DNA of 34,833 nt from an uncultured Alphaproteobacteria bacterium (GTDB taxonomy: Bacteria; Pseudomonadota; Alphaproteobacteria; UBA8366; JADFVY01). Positions within the stretch are counted from its first letter, which is position 1, and each line of letters starts with the position of its first letter. Below, one piece after another: positions 7,486 through 28,884 of this stretch. The DNA lies in assembly GCA_947259795.1 (NCBI GenBank), contig CAMYNJ010000148.1:1-34833 (forward strand), given 5' to 3'. A program made the position numbers and the translations under genes. Below the pieces are notes generated by a model. The model saw nothing but the letters and a program-made list of their open reading frames with translations. It had not been told where the DNA came from and made no database searches.

Positions 7486-7904
7486 AACAGGAACCCTATA
7501 TCAAGGTCGCCGAGGTCATGACCCGCGACCTGCACACCATCGACAGCATGGCGACGGTGCGCGAGGCGATGGAGAAAATGACGCGTGAGCGGGTCAGTTC
7601 ACTGATCGTGGAGCGTCGCGACGAGAAGGATGAGTATGGCGTGATCGTGGTCAACGACATCGCCCGCAAGGTGGTGGCGGCGAACCTCTCCTTCGACCGG
7701 GTGCAGGTCTATGAGGTGATGAGTAAACCCGTCGTCTACGTCGATCCGGAGATGGACCTCCGCTACGCGATCCGGCTGCTGGTGCGCATCGGGCTCAACC
7801 GTGCGCTGGTTCTGGGCGCCGACCGGCAGATCCAGGGCATGGTGACCCTGCGCGACATGGTGCTGCGCTATGCCGGTTCGCGCGACGGGGAGGCCATGTC
7901 TTGA
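7482..7904 (+). CDS. Tandem CBS-domain protein
   Basis: Two CBS-like repeats: VAEVMTRDLHTIDSMATVREAMEKMTRERVSSLIV and VYEVMSKPVVYVDPEMDLRYAIRLLVRIGLNRALVLGADRQIQGMVTLRDMV. Confidence 0.9.
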   Translation: MKQEPYIKVAEVMTRDLHTIDSMATVREAMEKMTRERVSSLIVERRDEKDEYGVIVVNDIARKVVAANLSFDRVQVYEVMSKPVVYVDPEMDLRYAIRLLVRIGLNRALVLGADRQIQGMVTLRDMVLRYAGSRDGEAMS

Positions 7905-8689
7905 GCGACGGCGCTGTCCCGGCAAAGTCCATCCCGCGCGTAGCCCTGGTCACCGGTGCGGCGCACCGCATCGGCCGCGCCATTGCGCTGGACCTGGCGG
8001 AACAAGGCTTTGACGTTGCGATTCATTACAATCGCTCGGGCGAAGCGGCCGAGAACCTGGCGACTCACATCCGCGGGATGGACCGGCGTGCCGTGACCCT
8101 GGCAGCCGATCTTGGGCGCGAAGAGGAATCCGCAAGCCTGATTGGGCGCGCGGCGGAGACGCTGGGGCCGGTGGGGGTTCTTGTTAACAACGCCTCGCGT
8201 TTCGAATACGACGTCTGGGACAAGGCCACGCGGGAAAGCTGGGATATCCATATGGAGGCCAACCTGCGCGCACCGTTCCTGCTATCGCAAGGCCTGGCGC
8301 GCGCCCTGCCGGATGAGGCGGAAGGCGTGATCGTCAATCTGCTGGATCAGCGCGTGTGGAATCTTACCCCCTATTTCATAACCTATACGCTGTCGAAAGC
8401 CGGTTTGTGGACATTAACCCAGACATTGGCGCTGGCGCTGGCGCCGCGCATTCGGGTCAACGCGATCGGACCGGGGCCGACGCTCAAGAGCGAACGCCAA
8501 AATGAAGACCATTTCCGCATGCAATGGGACGCGACCCCGCTGCAGCACGGCGCCACCCCGGAAGAAATCGCCGCGGGCATCCGCTATATCCTGGCGGCCC
8601 ATTCCATGACCGGCCAGATGATCGCGCTGGATGGTGGCGAACATCTGGGTTGGGCGCAGCCATCACGCGGCTTTGTTCCCTTTGAGTAG
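7901..8689 (+). CDS. SDR-family oxidoreductase (FolM/pteridine-reductase-like)
   Basis: VALVTGAAHRIGRAIALDLAEQGFDVAIHYNRS, LVNNAS, Y-x3-K (YTLSKAGLWTLT), RVNAIGPGPTL. TTG start overlaps the CBS gene stop (TTGA). Confidence 0.88.
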   Translation: MSDGAVPAKSIPRVALVTGAAHRIGRAIALDLAEQGFDVAIHYNRSGEAAENLATHIRGMDRRAVTLAADLGREEESASLIGRAAETLGPVGVLVNNASRFEYDVWDKATRESWDIHMEANLRAPFLLSQGLARALPDEAEGVIVNLLDQRVWNLTPYFITYTLSKAGLWTLTQTLALALAPRIRVNAIGPGPTLKSERQNEDHFRMQWDATPLQHGATPEEIAAGIRYILAAHSMTGQMIALDGGEHLGWAQPSRGFVPFE

Positions 8690-8757
8690 TAGTGGTCCAA
8701 TCAACCGAACTACTTTTTGTAGATTTTCAACTGTTCATGTTGAGGCATTTTGCGAAC

Positions 8758-9038
8758 GAATCGCGAATATTTTTACACAGTTGTCGCGCCGGTCATTTTT
8801 TCCCGATTCCATCCGAGTCGGTCCCGCCTGCCGGGTACAACCGCAGCTGTATGTGCATTGGTTAACATAGTTATTTCAATAAGTTAGGGACTGTGCCTAT
8901 TTTTTGTGCAACTGTCGCGAATCTGTGAGATTCCTGCGGACCGCGCGCCGAGTCGCAAAGTTGTGTACAGACTTATCCACAGGAATCGTGGATTGATAGG
9001 TAAAGGCCTGAATTTGCAGCCTGTTAATGGGTTGTTAA
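8758..9038. promoter_or_regulatory. AT-rich intergenic element: DnaA boxes, GANTC cluster, CtrA-like site
   Basis: DnaA-type TTTTACACA 8771-8779 and TTATCCACA 8973-8981; GANTC at 8758, 8805, 8815, 8919, 8929, 8950, 8983; TTAA-N7-TTAA at 9024-9038. Motifs read directly; function not established. Confidence 0.55.
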
Positions 9039-9098
9039 ATCATGCCGGCGGCGTTTCCGCCATTGACGGGACCTAAGGCGACCCCGAAATTAGGGGCA

Positions 9099-11021
9099 AT
9101 GAATAGCGATACAACAAGTCAGCGGGACAAACGGGCCCGCGATTATACCGCCAAGGTCAGCCTGGCCGACGGCGCGGCCCTGATCCGCGGCAAATTGAAG
9201 AGCATGCCGGGCAGCCCCGGCGTCTATCGAATGGTCGGCGCGCGCGGCAAAGTGCTTTATGTGGGAAAGGCGCGCAATCTGAGGAAACGCGTGGCGACCT
9301 ATGCGAACGCCGGCCGCCTGCCGGTGCGGTTGCAGCGCATGGTCGCCGAGACCTGCGAGCTGGAGATCGTCACTACGCATACCGAGGTCGAGGCGCTGCT
9401 GCTTGAGGCGAACCTGATCAAGACGCTGAAGCCGCACTACAATATCCTGCTGCGCGACGACAAATCCTTCGCCGACATCCTGATTGCGGCCGACCACGAT
9501 TTTCCGCAGCTCATCAAGCATCGCGGCGCGCGCAAGCGGCCCGGCAAATATTACGGCCCCTTTGCGTCGGCCGGCGCGGTGAACCGGACGATCACCGCGC
9601 TGCAGCGCGCCTTCCTGCTGCGCAATTGTTCGGATTCGATCTTCGCCAGCCGCACCCGGCCCTGCCTGCAATACCAGATCAAGCGTTGCAGCGCGCCCTG
9701 CGTCGGCCGGATCGACGCGGCGGACTATGGCGCGCTGGTCCGCCAGGCCCATGAGTTCCTGATTGGACGGTCGCACGCGGTGCAGAAGGAGCTGGCCCAC
9801 CAGATGCAGGAGGCCAGCGACGGCCTTGAGTTCGAGCGGGCCGGCGCCCTGCGCGACCGCATCAAGGCGCTGACCATGGTGCAGTCGCACCAGGACATCA
9901 ACCCGATGGGCATCGGCAATGCCGACGTCATCGCGCTGGCCCAGGAAGGCGGCCAGTCCTGCATCCAGGTCTTCTTCTTCAGGGACGGCCGCAATCACGG
10001 TAACCGGGCCTACTATCCAAGCCATGACCGCAAGGCGGAACCCGCGGAAATCATGTCCGCCTTCATCGGACAGTTCTACGATGGCCGGTCGGCGCCGCGG
10101 CTGGTGCTGACCAGCATCCAGTCGGCCGAGGCGGACCTGCTGGCCGAAGCCCTGTCGATCAATGCTGAACACAAGGTGGAAGTCCGCATGCCGCAACGCG
10201 GCCGTTTCCGTAAACCCGTGGAGCATGCGCTGGCCAACGCACGCCAGGCGCTGGCGCGGCGCATGTCGGAGAGCGCCTCGCAGCGCCGCCTGCTCGAAGG
10301 GCTGGCTGAGGCGCTGGGACTGGAATCCCCGCCCGAACGCATCGAAGTGTACGACAACAGCCATATCCAGGGATCGAATGCCGTCGGCGCGATGATCGTC
10401 GCCGGACCGGAAGGGCTGAACAAGGGCGCCTACAGGAAGTTCAACATCCGCACGGCGGGCGGGCCCAAGGGCGAAGCCGCGGCCGGCGACGATTACGCGA
10501 TGATGCACGAAGTGCTGGGCCGCCGGTTTGCCCGTGCGCTGAAGGAAGATCCCGACCGCGAGGAAGGCGGCTGGCCCGACCTAGTGGTGATCGACGGCGG
10601 GCAGGGCCAATTGACGGCGGCGCAGGAAGCCCTGGAGGAACTGGGCATCAAGGATGTGGAACTGCTGGCCATCGCCAAGGGGCCGGACCGCAATGCAGGA
10701 CGCGAGCGGTTCTTCCGCCCGGACCGCCCCTCTTTCATGCTGGAGCCCCGCGACCCCGTGCTCTATCTCCTGCAGCGGCTGCGCGACGAATCCCACCGCT
10801 TCGCGATCGGCGCCCACCGGACCCGCCGGACCAAGGGCATTGCCGCATCGCCGCTGGATGAAATTCCCGGCATCGGGGCGGCGCGCAAGCGGGCCCTGCT
10901 GCGGCATTTCGGTTCGGCCAGGGCTGTGGGCCAAGCGGGACTCAGTGATCTGGAGGCGGTCGGCGGCATTAGCCGCGCGGTGGCCCGGAAAATTTATGGC
11001 CATTTCCACGATGATCGCTAG
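9099..11021 (+). CDS. uvrC: Excinuclease ABC subunit UvrC
   Basis: GIY-YIG-like N-terminus (PGSPGVYRMVGARGKVLYVGKARNLRKRV), UVR segment, IEVYDNSHIQGSNAVGAMIV, C-terminal HhH (IPGIGAARKRALLRHFGS). ATG 9099 (MNSDTTSQ) has an upstream AGGGG; ORF track begins at 9042. Confidence 0.96.
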   Translation: MNSDTTSQRDKRARDYTAKVSLADGAALIRGKLKSMPGSPGVYRMVGARGKVLYVGKARNLRKRVATYANAGRLPVRLQRMVAETCELEIVTTHTEVEALLLEANLIKTLKPHYNILLRDDKSFADILIAADHDFPQLIKHRGARKRPGKYYGPFASAGAVNRTITALQRAFLLRNCSDSIFASRTRPCLQYQIKRCSAPCVGRIDAADYGALVRQAHEFLIGRSHAVQKELAHQMQEASDGLEFERAGALRDRIKALTMVQSHQDINPMGIGNADVIALAQEGGQSCIQVFFFRDGRNHGNRAYYPSHDRKAEPAEIMSAFIGQFYDGRSAPRLVLTSIQSAEADLLAEALSINAEHKVEVRMPQRGRFRKPVEHALANARQALARRMSESASQRRLLEGLAEALGLESPPERIEVYDNSHIQGSNAVGAMIVAGPEGLNKGAYRKFNIRTAGGPKGEAAAGDDYAMMHEVLGRRFARALKEDPDREEGGWPDLVVIDGGQGQLTAAQEALEELGIKDVELLAIAKGPDRNAGRERFFRPDRPSFMLEPRDPVLYLLQRLRDESHRFAIGAHRTRRTKGIAASPLDEIPGIGAARKRALLRHFGSARAVGQAGLSDLEAVGGISRAVARKIYGHFHDDR

Positions 11022-18476: not shown

Positions 18477-18538
18477 CGGCGTCTCCTTCCATGTGACCGG
18501 AACGGATGAAGGGGCCGACTTTGCTAGGCGGACTCCTG

Positions 18539-18633
18539 CTCCCTCCGCCGGCATTACCCGGATCAGGTTCATCGGGTTGGCAGGCCGCCTATTGCGTACA
18601 ACCTGCCTCTCAGCCGTTTCCGGCACCCCGTAG
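18539..18633 (-). ncRNA. TPP riboswitch (THI element)
   Basis: Reverse strand CTACGGGGTGCCGGAAACGGCTGAGAGGCAGG...CAACCCGATGAACCTGATCCGGGTAATGCCGGCGGAGGGA matches the THI-box core, upstream of thiB. Confidence 0.95.
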
Positions 18634-18733
18634 AGTGAATGCGACCATAAACCGTCGGGCCGGCGGGAACAAAGGGAAATTACCCAAACATGAACTGGAC
18701 TGATCGTCGCCGCTGTGCTTTACGGTCCCGGTC

Positions 18734-28688: not shown

Positions 28689-28884
28689 TCGCGCCCCCTT
28701 AGAGCCACAGGCCCGGCCGATAACCCGCCGTTATCGGGGCCGGATGCGGCGCAAGAATGCGAAAATTCGCTTCCCTACAAAATATGGCAACGAATCACTC
28801 ATGCACCACAATACCTAGGATGCCACAGGGGGATTCCGCAGTGCAACCCCGCAATAGCCAAACGGAAGAAATATCTGTGGATAA

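Follow-up and report, generated by a model that had tools for sequence, protein, structure and literature searches.

A probable DARS-type (DnaA-reactivating) element in the intergenic region upstream of uvrC in Alphaproteobacteria

What is the function of the AT-rich intergenic region that precedes uvrC in this alphaproteobacterial genome, and does the chromosome begin to replicate there? The region lies between an SDR-family oxidoreductase gene and uvrC (Table 1). It has a GC content of 48%, compared with 64% for the window (the whole stretch of 34,833 nucleotides, or 34.8 kb, that was analysed), and this is the lowest value in the window, in agreement with the AT-richness claimed by a sequence-only reading of the same DNA. 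That reading had also listed two DnaA boxes fitting TTWTNCACA, seven GANTC sites within 230 bp and a CtrA-type site (TTAA-TGGGTTG-TTAA), and had proposed an oriC-like or cell-cycle control region. All of these sites are present: TTATCCACA and TTTTACACA lie on the forward strand exactly where it had placed them, the GANTC sites start at 8758, 8805, 8815, 8919, 8929, 8950 and 8983, and the CtrA-type sequence is the only TTAA-N7-TTAA in the window. Judged against first-order Markov sequences from the same segment, TTWTNCACA occurs twice in the segment where 0.05 occurrences are expected (P about 0.001) and TTAA-N7-TTAA has a P of about 0.01; GANTC occurs seven times where 1.1 are expected, a number reached by 0 of 2000 Markov sequences. 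Elsewhere in the window, TTWTNCACA is found only at 28876, and the GANTC cluster is the densest among a total of 80 GANTC sites.

The weaker boxes of the same reading fared unevenly. The one at 8961 (+) is conserved and corresponds to box III below, while those at 8852 and 8903 are not recognisable as conserved DnaA boxes; the latter falls within a conserved palindrome. Three sites were absent from that reading, namely an inverted box at 8987, an IHF-type site at 8874 and the palindrome itself. We took 9099, the point from which the sequence resembles that of same-genus relatives, as the start of uvrC; with the in-frame ATG at 9042, the gene would be 19 codons longer (9042-9098).

Table 1. Features in and around the region upstream of uvrC (window coordinates)
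Feature	Position	Strand	Remarks
SDR-family oxidoreductase gene	7901..8689	+	NF006597, E = 2.4e-113 (NCBIfam); upstream of element
AT-rich intergenic region	8690..9098	.	between SDR gene and uvrC; contains whole element
Cluster of seven GANTC (CcrM-type) sites	8758..8987	.	230 bp
Distal fourth DnaA box TTTTACACA	8771..8779	+	202 bp upstream of box II
IHF-type site TTTCAATAAGTTA	8874..8886	+	consensus WATCAANNNNTTR, 1 mismatch
Palindrome TGCCTATTTTTTGTGCA (TGC-N11-GCA)	8894..8910	.	matches Fis consensus GnnYAnnnnnTRnnC
DnaA box III TTGTGTACA	8961..8969	+	tandem with box II
DnaA box II TTATCCACA	8973..8981	+	strong box; TTWTYCACA in 45/50 uvrC-upstream regions
DnaA box I CGTGGATTG, inverted	8987..8995	-	head-to-head with box II, 5-bp spacer between 9-mers
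TTAA-N7-TTAA (CtrA-type)	9024..9038	.	not conserved
uvrC (excinuclease ABC subunit C)	9099..11021	+	TIGR00194, E = 3.4e-155 (NCBIfam); downstream of element

To locate the origin, we sampled GC skew from 20-kb stretches of complete relatives and searched seven genomes for hemE; the source genome is a fragmented, 66%-complete metagenome-assembled genome (MAG) of 3.04 Mb, which searches with UvrC and with the core assign to the class Alphaproteobacteria. The element is found upstream of uvrC with the same layout in the relatives G014, G017 and G052 (with a degenerate box I in G052), whose GC skew is clean, and in all three the skew minimum is at hemE, not at uvrC. The minimum spans 450-670 kb in G014 (hemE at 626 kb, uvrC 0.96 Mb away), 1655-1890 kb in G017 (hemE at 1655 kb, uvrC 0.81 Mb away) and about 3.56 Mb to the contig end in G052 (hemE at 3604 kb, uvrC 1.09 Mb away). 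In all complete relatives, hemE is away from the uvrC element; it was not found in the incomplete MAG. In the complete genomes G014, G017, G038 and G052, uvrC is found at 32-58% of the half-chromosome that begins at hemE/oriC. The closest complete genome, G005 of the same family, has a weak and irregular skew, too scrambled to place an origin. A minimum near its uvrC was seen in the first sampling and was gone with denser sampling. The single contig of G005 also gives two equal-scoring RAMA methylase hits (G005:C1:100867 and G005:C1:3287746), which, together with the scrambled skew, makes a duplication or misassembly possible.

The proposal that this region is the chromosomal oriC of the lineage has in its favour the AT-richness, DnaA boxes, GANTC cluster and IHF-type site, the first three of which are also features of the Caulobacter-type oriC in the hemE neighbourhood. 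However, unlike that origin, the element sits off the GC-skew minimum, has no hemE and carries a CtrA site that is unconserved. With the skew minimum 0.8-1.1 Mb from uvrC in the three relatives, and with the core of the element shared by a non-origin, DARS1 of E. coli, the oriC reading is not borne out and appears highly improbable; chromosome copying that starts at the AT-rich stretch before uvrC is likewise very unlikely. DnaA-box and AT-rich criteria alone can take a DARS for an origin.

What the region does contain is a rigid array of DnaA boxes. We searched for UvrC in 60 related genomes and compared the upstream regions of 50 genomes. In 46 of these 50, the same core layout occurs upstream of uvrC: box III, 3 bp, TTATCCACA, 5 bp and an inverted box I, which in the window reads TTGTGTACA-GAC-TTATCCACA-GGAAT-CGTGGATTG. 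The core score is 16-19 of 19 in these 46 regions, compared with a maximum of 15 in 1000 shuffled regions. In 34 of 45 loci, the gap between [AC]ACA and box II is exactly 3 bp, and any other gap is seen in at most three; GTGGAT follows box II at a gap of exactly 6 bp in 36 of the 45 and at no other gap from 0 to 24. When conservation of the DnaA boxes in relatives was checked, it was boxes II, III and I that proved to be conserved, as a unit of fixed spacing. Relatives of the same genus and family also retain the core, palindrome and distal box better than the remaining intergenic DNA; compared with G005, 9/9 positions of the distal box, 14/17 of the palindrome and 26/35 of the core are conserved, vs 142/336 in the rest of the intergenic region. 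Box I is a poor 9-mer in the window (CAATCCACG on its own strand) and is degraded elsewhere, for example in L054 and L029-L031. The core is absent from three of the 50 regions (L055, L062 and L066), and in S. meliloti the pSymB copy of uvrC overlaps the SDR gene, leaving no intergenic gap. These cases indicate that the element is dispensable in some lineages.

In E. coli, the DARS core consists of three DnaA boxes, of which box I is oriented against boxes II and III, with equal spacing in DARS1 and DARS2, both of which lie between oriC and terC (PMC5742627). Upstream of uvrB in E. coli K-12 (NC_000913), on the minus strand and facing away from uvrB, we find TAATACACA-TGG-TTATCCACA-GGAAT-AGTGGATAA; we take this to be DARS1 from its box arrangement and from the map position given in a review (0.81 Mb, PMC5742627). 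This element, in the bioD-uvrB intergenic region, shares with the window a three-box core of identical order, orientation and spacing, the 5-bp spacer GGAAT, an adjoining excinuclease gene and a position away from oriC. It differs in that the adjoining gene is uvrB there and uvrC here, and in that the window adds an IHF-type site, a palindrome and a fourth, distal box, each at a set distance, whereas DARS1 needs no added factor to work in vitro (PMC5742627). E. coli DARS2 (rppH-mutH) has the same frame near mutH, with weaker boxes I and III (box I deviates, TTATCCCAG), and resembles the window in its core geometry, upstream IHF site and Fis-type site(s). However, relative to box II, its IHF site is at about -109 on the minus strand, compared with -99 on the plus strand in the window, and its upstream TTTTNCACA box (there TTTTCCACA) is at -127, compared with -202. 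In the window, the palindrome has the IHF site on one side and the core on the other, whereas the Fis sites of DARS2 are elsewhere and no palindrome is present at -78.

By its anatomy (three boxes with box I opposite, fixed spacing and an intergenic position between oriC and terminus), the region would belong among the DARS, and comparison with E. coli indicates that it is probably a DARS-type element (DnaA-reactivating sequence), in an alphaproteobacterial form with its own accessory layout. The DARS2 core has been described as limited to gammaproteobacterial relatives of E. coli (PMC4245941), DARS-like sequences have been described in V. cholerae (PMC6090056), and a review remarks in one sentence that DARS-like sequences occur in many proteobacterial species (PMC10380432). 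Our literature search found no DARS described in an alphaproteobacterium, with descriptions only in gammaproteobacteria apart from that general remark.

The accessory blocks were found by aligning the loci that have a distal box, and 28 loci outside this discovery set served as a hold-out. About 40 of 46 loci (hold-out 22/28) carry the Fis consensus GnnYAnnnnnTRnnC (PMC8682772) at -77/-78 relative to box II, and most of the 46 (hold-out 21/28) an IHF consensus match at -97 to -100 (about -99). Position histograms for the 46 loci peak at 40 Fis-type matches (bin -80 to -71) and at 39 IHF matches (bin -100 to -91); no other bin holds more than four. The distal box is less widespread; in 16 loci (about a third), TTTTNCACA precedes box II by 198-203 bp and points the same way, and 10 of the 28 hold-out loci have it within 190-215 bp.

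The 17-bp palindrome has the form TGCC-TATTTTTTA-GGCA, and its inner 15 bp fit the Fis consensus. We know of no Fis in the host, and no stand-alone Fis was seen, as every HTH_8 match belongs to an open frame of 180 residues or more. TGC-N11-GCA is also the form of NtrC sites, and the DNA-binding domain of Fis is related to that of NtrC; these two points hint at a possible NtrC-family binder. In alphaproteobacteria, the palindrome may be read by a non-Fis protein, possibly of the NtrC/NtrX family or an undescribed nucleoid protein, and its invariance points to a specific regulator.

To see how the core is distributed, we searched ten genomes for the dyad with at most one mismatch, and eight of them contain exactly one, always before uvrC. 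An exact dyad with any gap of 4-7 occurs in 74 of 289 sampled genomes of the class; in the 30 loci fetched, the 6-bp-gap form is directly before uvrC, on the same strand, wherever the locus includes uvrC. The source genome has 12 copies of TTATCCACA and a sole dyad, at 8973; the second copy in the window (28876-28884, minus strand) is without DARS partner boxes.

The stricter pattern ACA-N3-TTATCCACA-N6-GTGGATA (19 fixed bases) matches at least 118 stretches in a collection of 84,980 species. Among the matches listed, 79 of 80 loci belong to Pseudomonadota, among them enterobacteria and vibrios with the core beside uvrB and alphaproteobacteria with it beside uvrC, and the named alphaproteobacterial genera are Pelagibius and Paracoccus. 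As a positive control, the known DARS1 loci (uvrB) of Citrobacter, Kosakonia, Erwinia, Photorhabdus, Vibrio and others were recovered. The lone match outside Pseudomonadota among those listed (L192, labelled Planktophila) has a hemW-type neighbour, as in Woeseiaceae, and its contig is probably misbinned gammaproteobacterial DNA. Other neighbours also occur: the core is upstream of priA in Acidovorax, Ralstonia and Lysobacter (L178, L236, L239), downstream of hemW in L187, L230 and L192, with citrate synthase on the other flank in the former two (in Woeseiaceae, the core is between hemW and the citrate synthase gene, gltA), and next to coq7 in Mariprofundus. In the non-alphaproteobacterial loci, an opposite-strand IHF match clusters at -109 to -112, and a Fis-type palindrome is again present at -78, in a minority only.

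Could the array simply be a promoter control region, in which DnaA, IHF and a Fis/NtrC-type regulator adjust the transcription of uvrC over the cell cycle and no nucleotide is exchanged? This would explain the constant linkage, as the alphaproteobacterial array invariably precedes uvrC and keeps one orientation relative to it, and the homologous core of E. coli is upstream of uvrB. However, the same core precedes priA in Acidovorax, Ralstonia and Lysobacter and separates hemW from the citrate synthase gene in Woeseiaceae, and the core may stand anywhere from about 0 to 290 bp before the uvrC start, compared with the rigid spacing inside the element. That the geometry is kept while the downstream gene changes is better explained by a role of the DNA element as such than by control of one gene, and we consider promoter control alone unlikely. 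A datA-like site, a negative element that titrates DnaA or promotes hydrolysis of DnaA-bound ATP, seems less likely still. Like datA of E. coli, the region combines a non-origin cluster of several DnaA boxes with an IHF-type site, although datA is not described with a head-to-head DARS core, and the head-to-head pair with its 5-bp spacer and tandem third box is precisely such a core. In minimal datA, moreover, the IHF site lies between the key boxes (box 7 - box 2 - IHF site - box 3; PMC5742627), whereas here it is separated from the core by about 75 bp and, in loci that have the distal box, lies between that box and the core.

The dyads might also be read as the stems of a structured RNA or terminator, since TATCCAC...GTGGATA and TGCCTA...TAGGCA can pair. 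The region has no Rfam match, however, and the T-run lies within the loop rather than after the stem. Changes in box I (GGGGATA, GTGCGAA, AAGTGAA) also come without matching changes in box II, and a box II that is unchanged where box I has decayed argues against an RNA stem kept by compensation. We give this reading almost no weight.

To our knowledge, the conversion of ADP-DnaA to ATP-DnaA has been worked out only in E. coli. If the DARS-type element works as its counterparts do there, ADP-DnaA would bind boxes III, II and I, and the DnaA pair facing on boxes II and I would make a head-to-head contact through which ADP is lost. The freed DnaA would then take up ATP and could fire oriC, which is at another place (close to hemE in the relatives tested). 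By analogy with IHF and Fis at DARS2 of E. coli, bending at the IHF site and a protein at the palindrome may together time the activation of the element, and an additional effect on uvrC transcription may exist. The comparison suggests that the DnaA recharging step extends well beyond the relatives of E. coli. More tentatively, the IHF site, palindrome and three-box core may form an ancestral, Pseudomonadota-wide DnaA-recharging module that stayed together while its neighbouring gene changed (uvrC in alphaproteobacteria, uvrB in enterobacteria, priA in betaproteobacteria and Lysobacter, hemW/gltA in Woeseiaceae), with the alphaproteobacterial palindrome read by a non-Fis protein that couples replication to nutrition or the cell cycle; we regard this broader scenario as conceivable but somewhat doubtful. 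With a named, single-copy and easily deletable locus by uvrC in much of Alphaproteobacteria, the question of DnaA recharging can be tested directly in alphaproteobacterial cell-cycle models.

The cell-cycle half of the original proposal fits these results, with conserved DnaA boxes in a DARS-type array and a CcrM-type (RAMA domain) methylase encoded in the genome. GANTC sites occur at the same positions in three same-genus genomes (7, 7 and 6 sites), so that both same-genus relatives retain the cluster, and are fewer elsewhere, with few at the locus in most relatives outside the family. As the genome encodes the methylase, the GANTC cluster may matter, and we conjecture that CcrM methylation could add cell-cycle control in this genus. 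The CtrA part of the proposal did not hold up, as the site is absent from both same-genus relatives with data (G001 and G003; loci L003 and L004); the CtrA-type sequence is probably incidental.

Two further observations concern other loci. In an Alcaligenaceae MAG and in Duganella (L243:2483-3108 and L200:824-1286), two to three strict DARS cores occur within a few hundred bases, spaced by about 300 bp in the former and 435 bp in the latter, and these are possible tandem DARS arrays. The window also contains a TPP riboswitch aptamer on the minus strand at 18521-18640 (Rfam RF00059, 66 bits).
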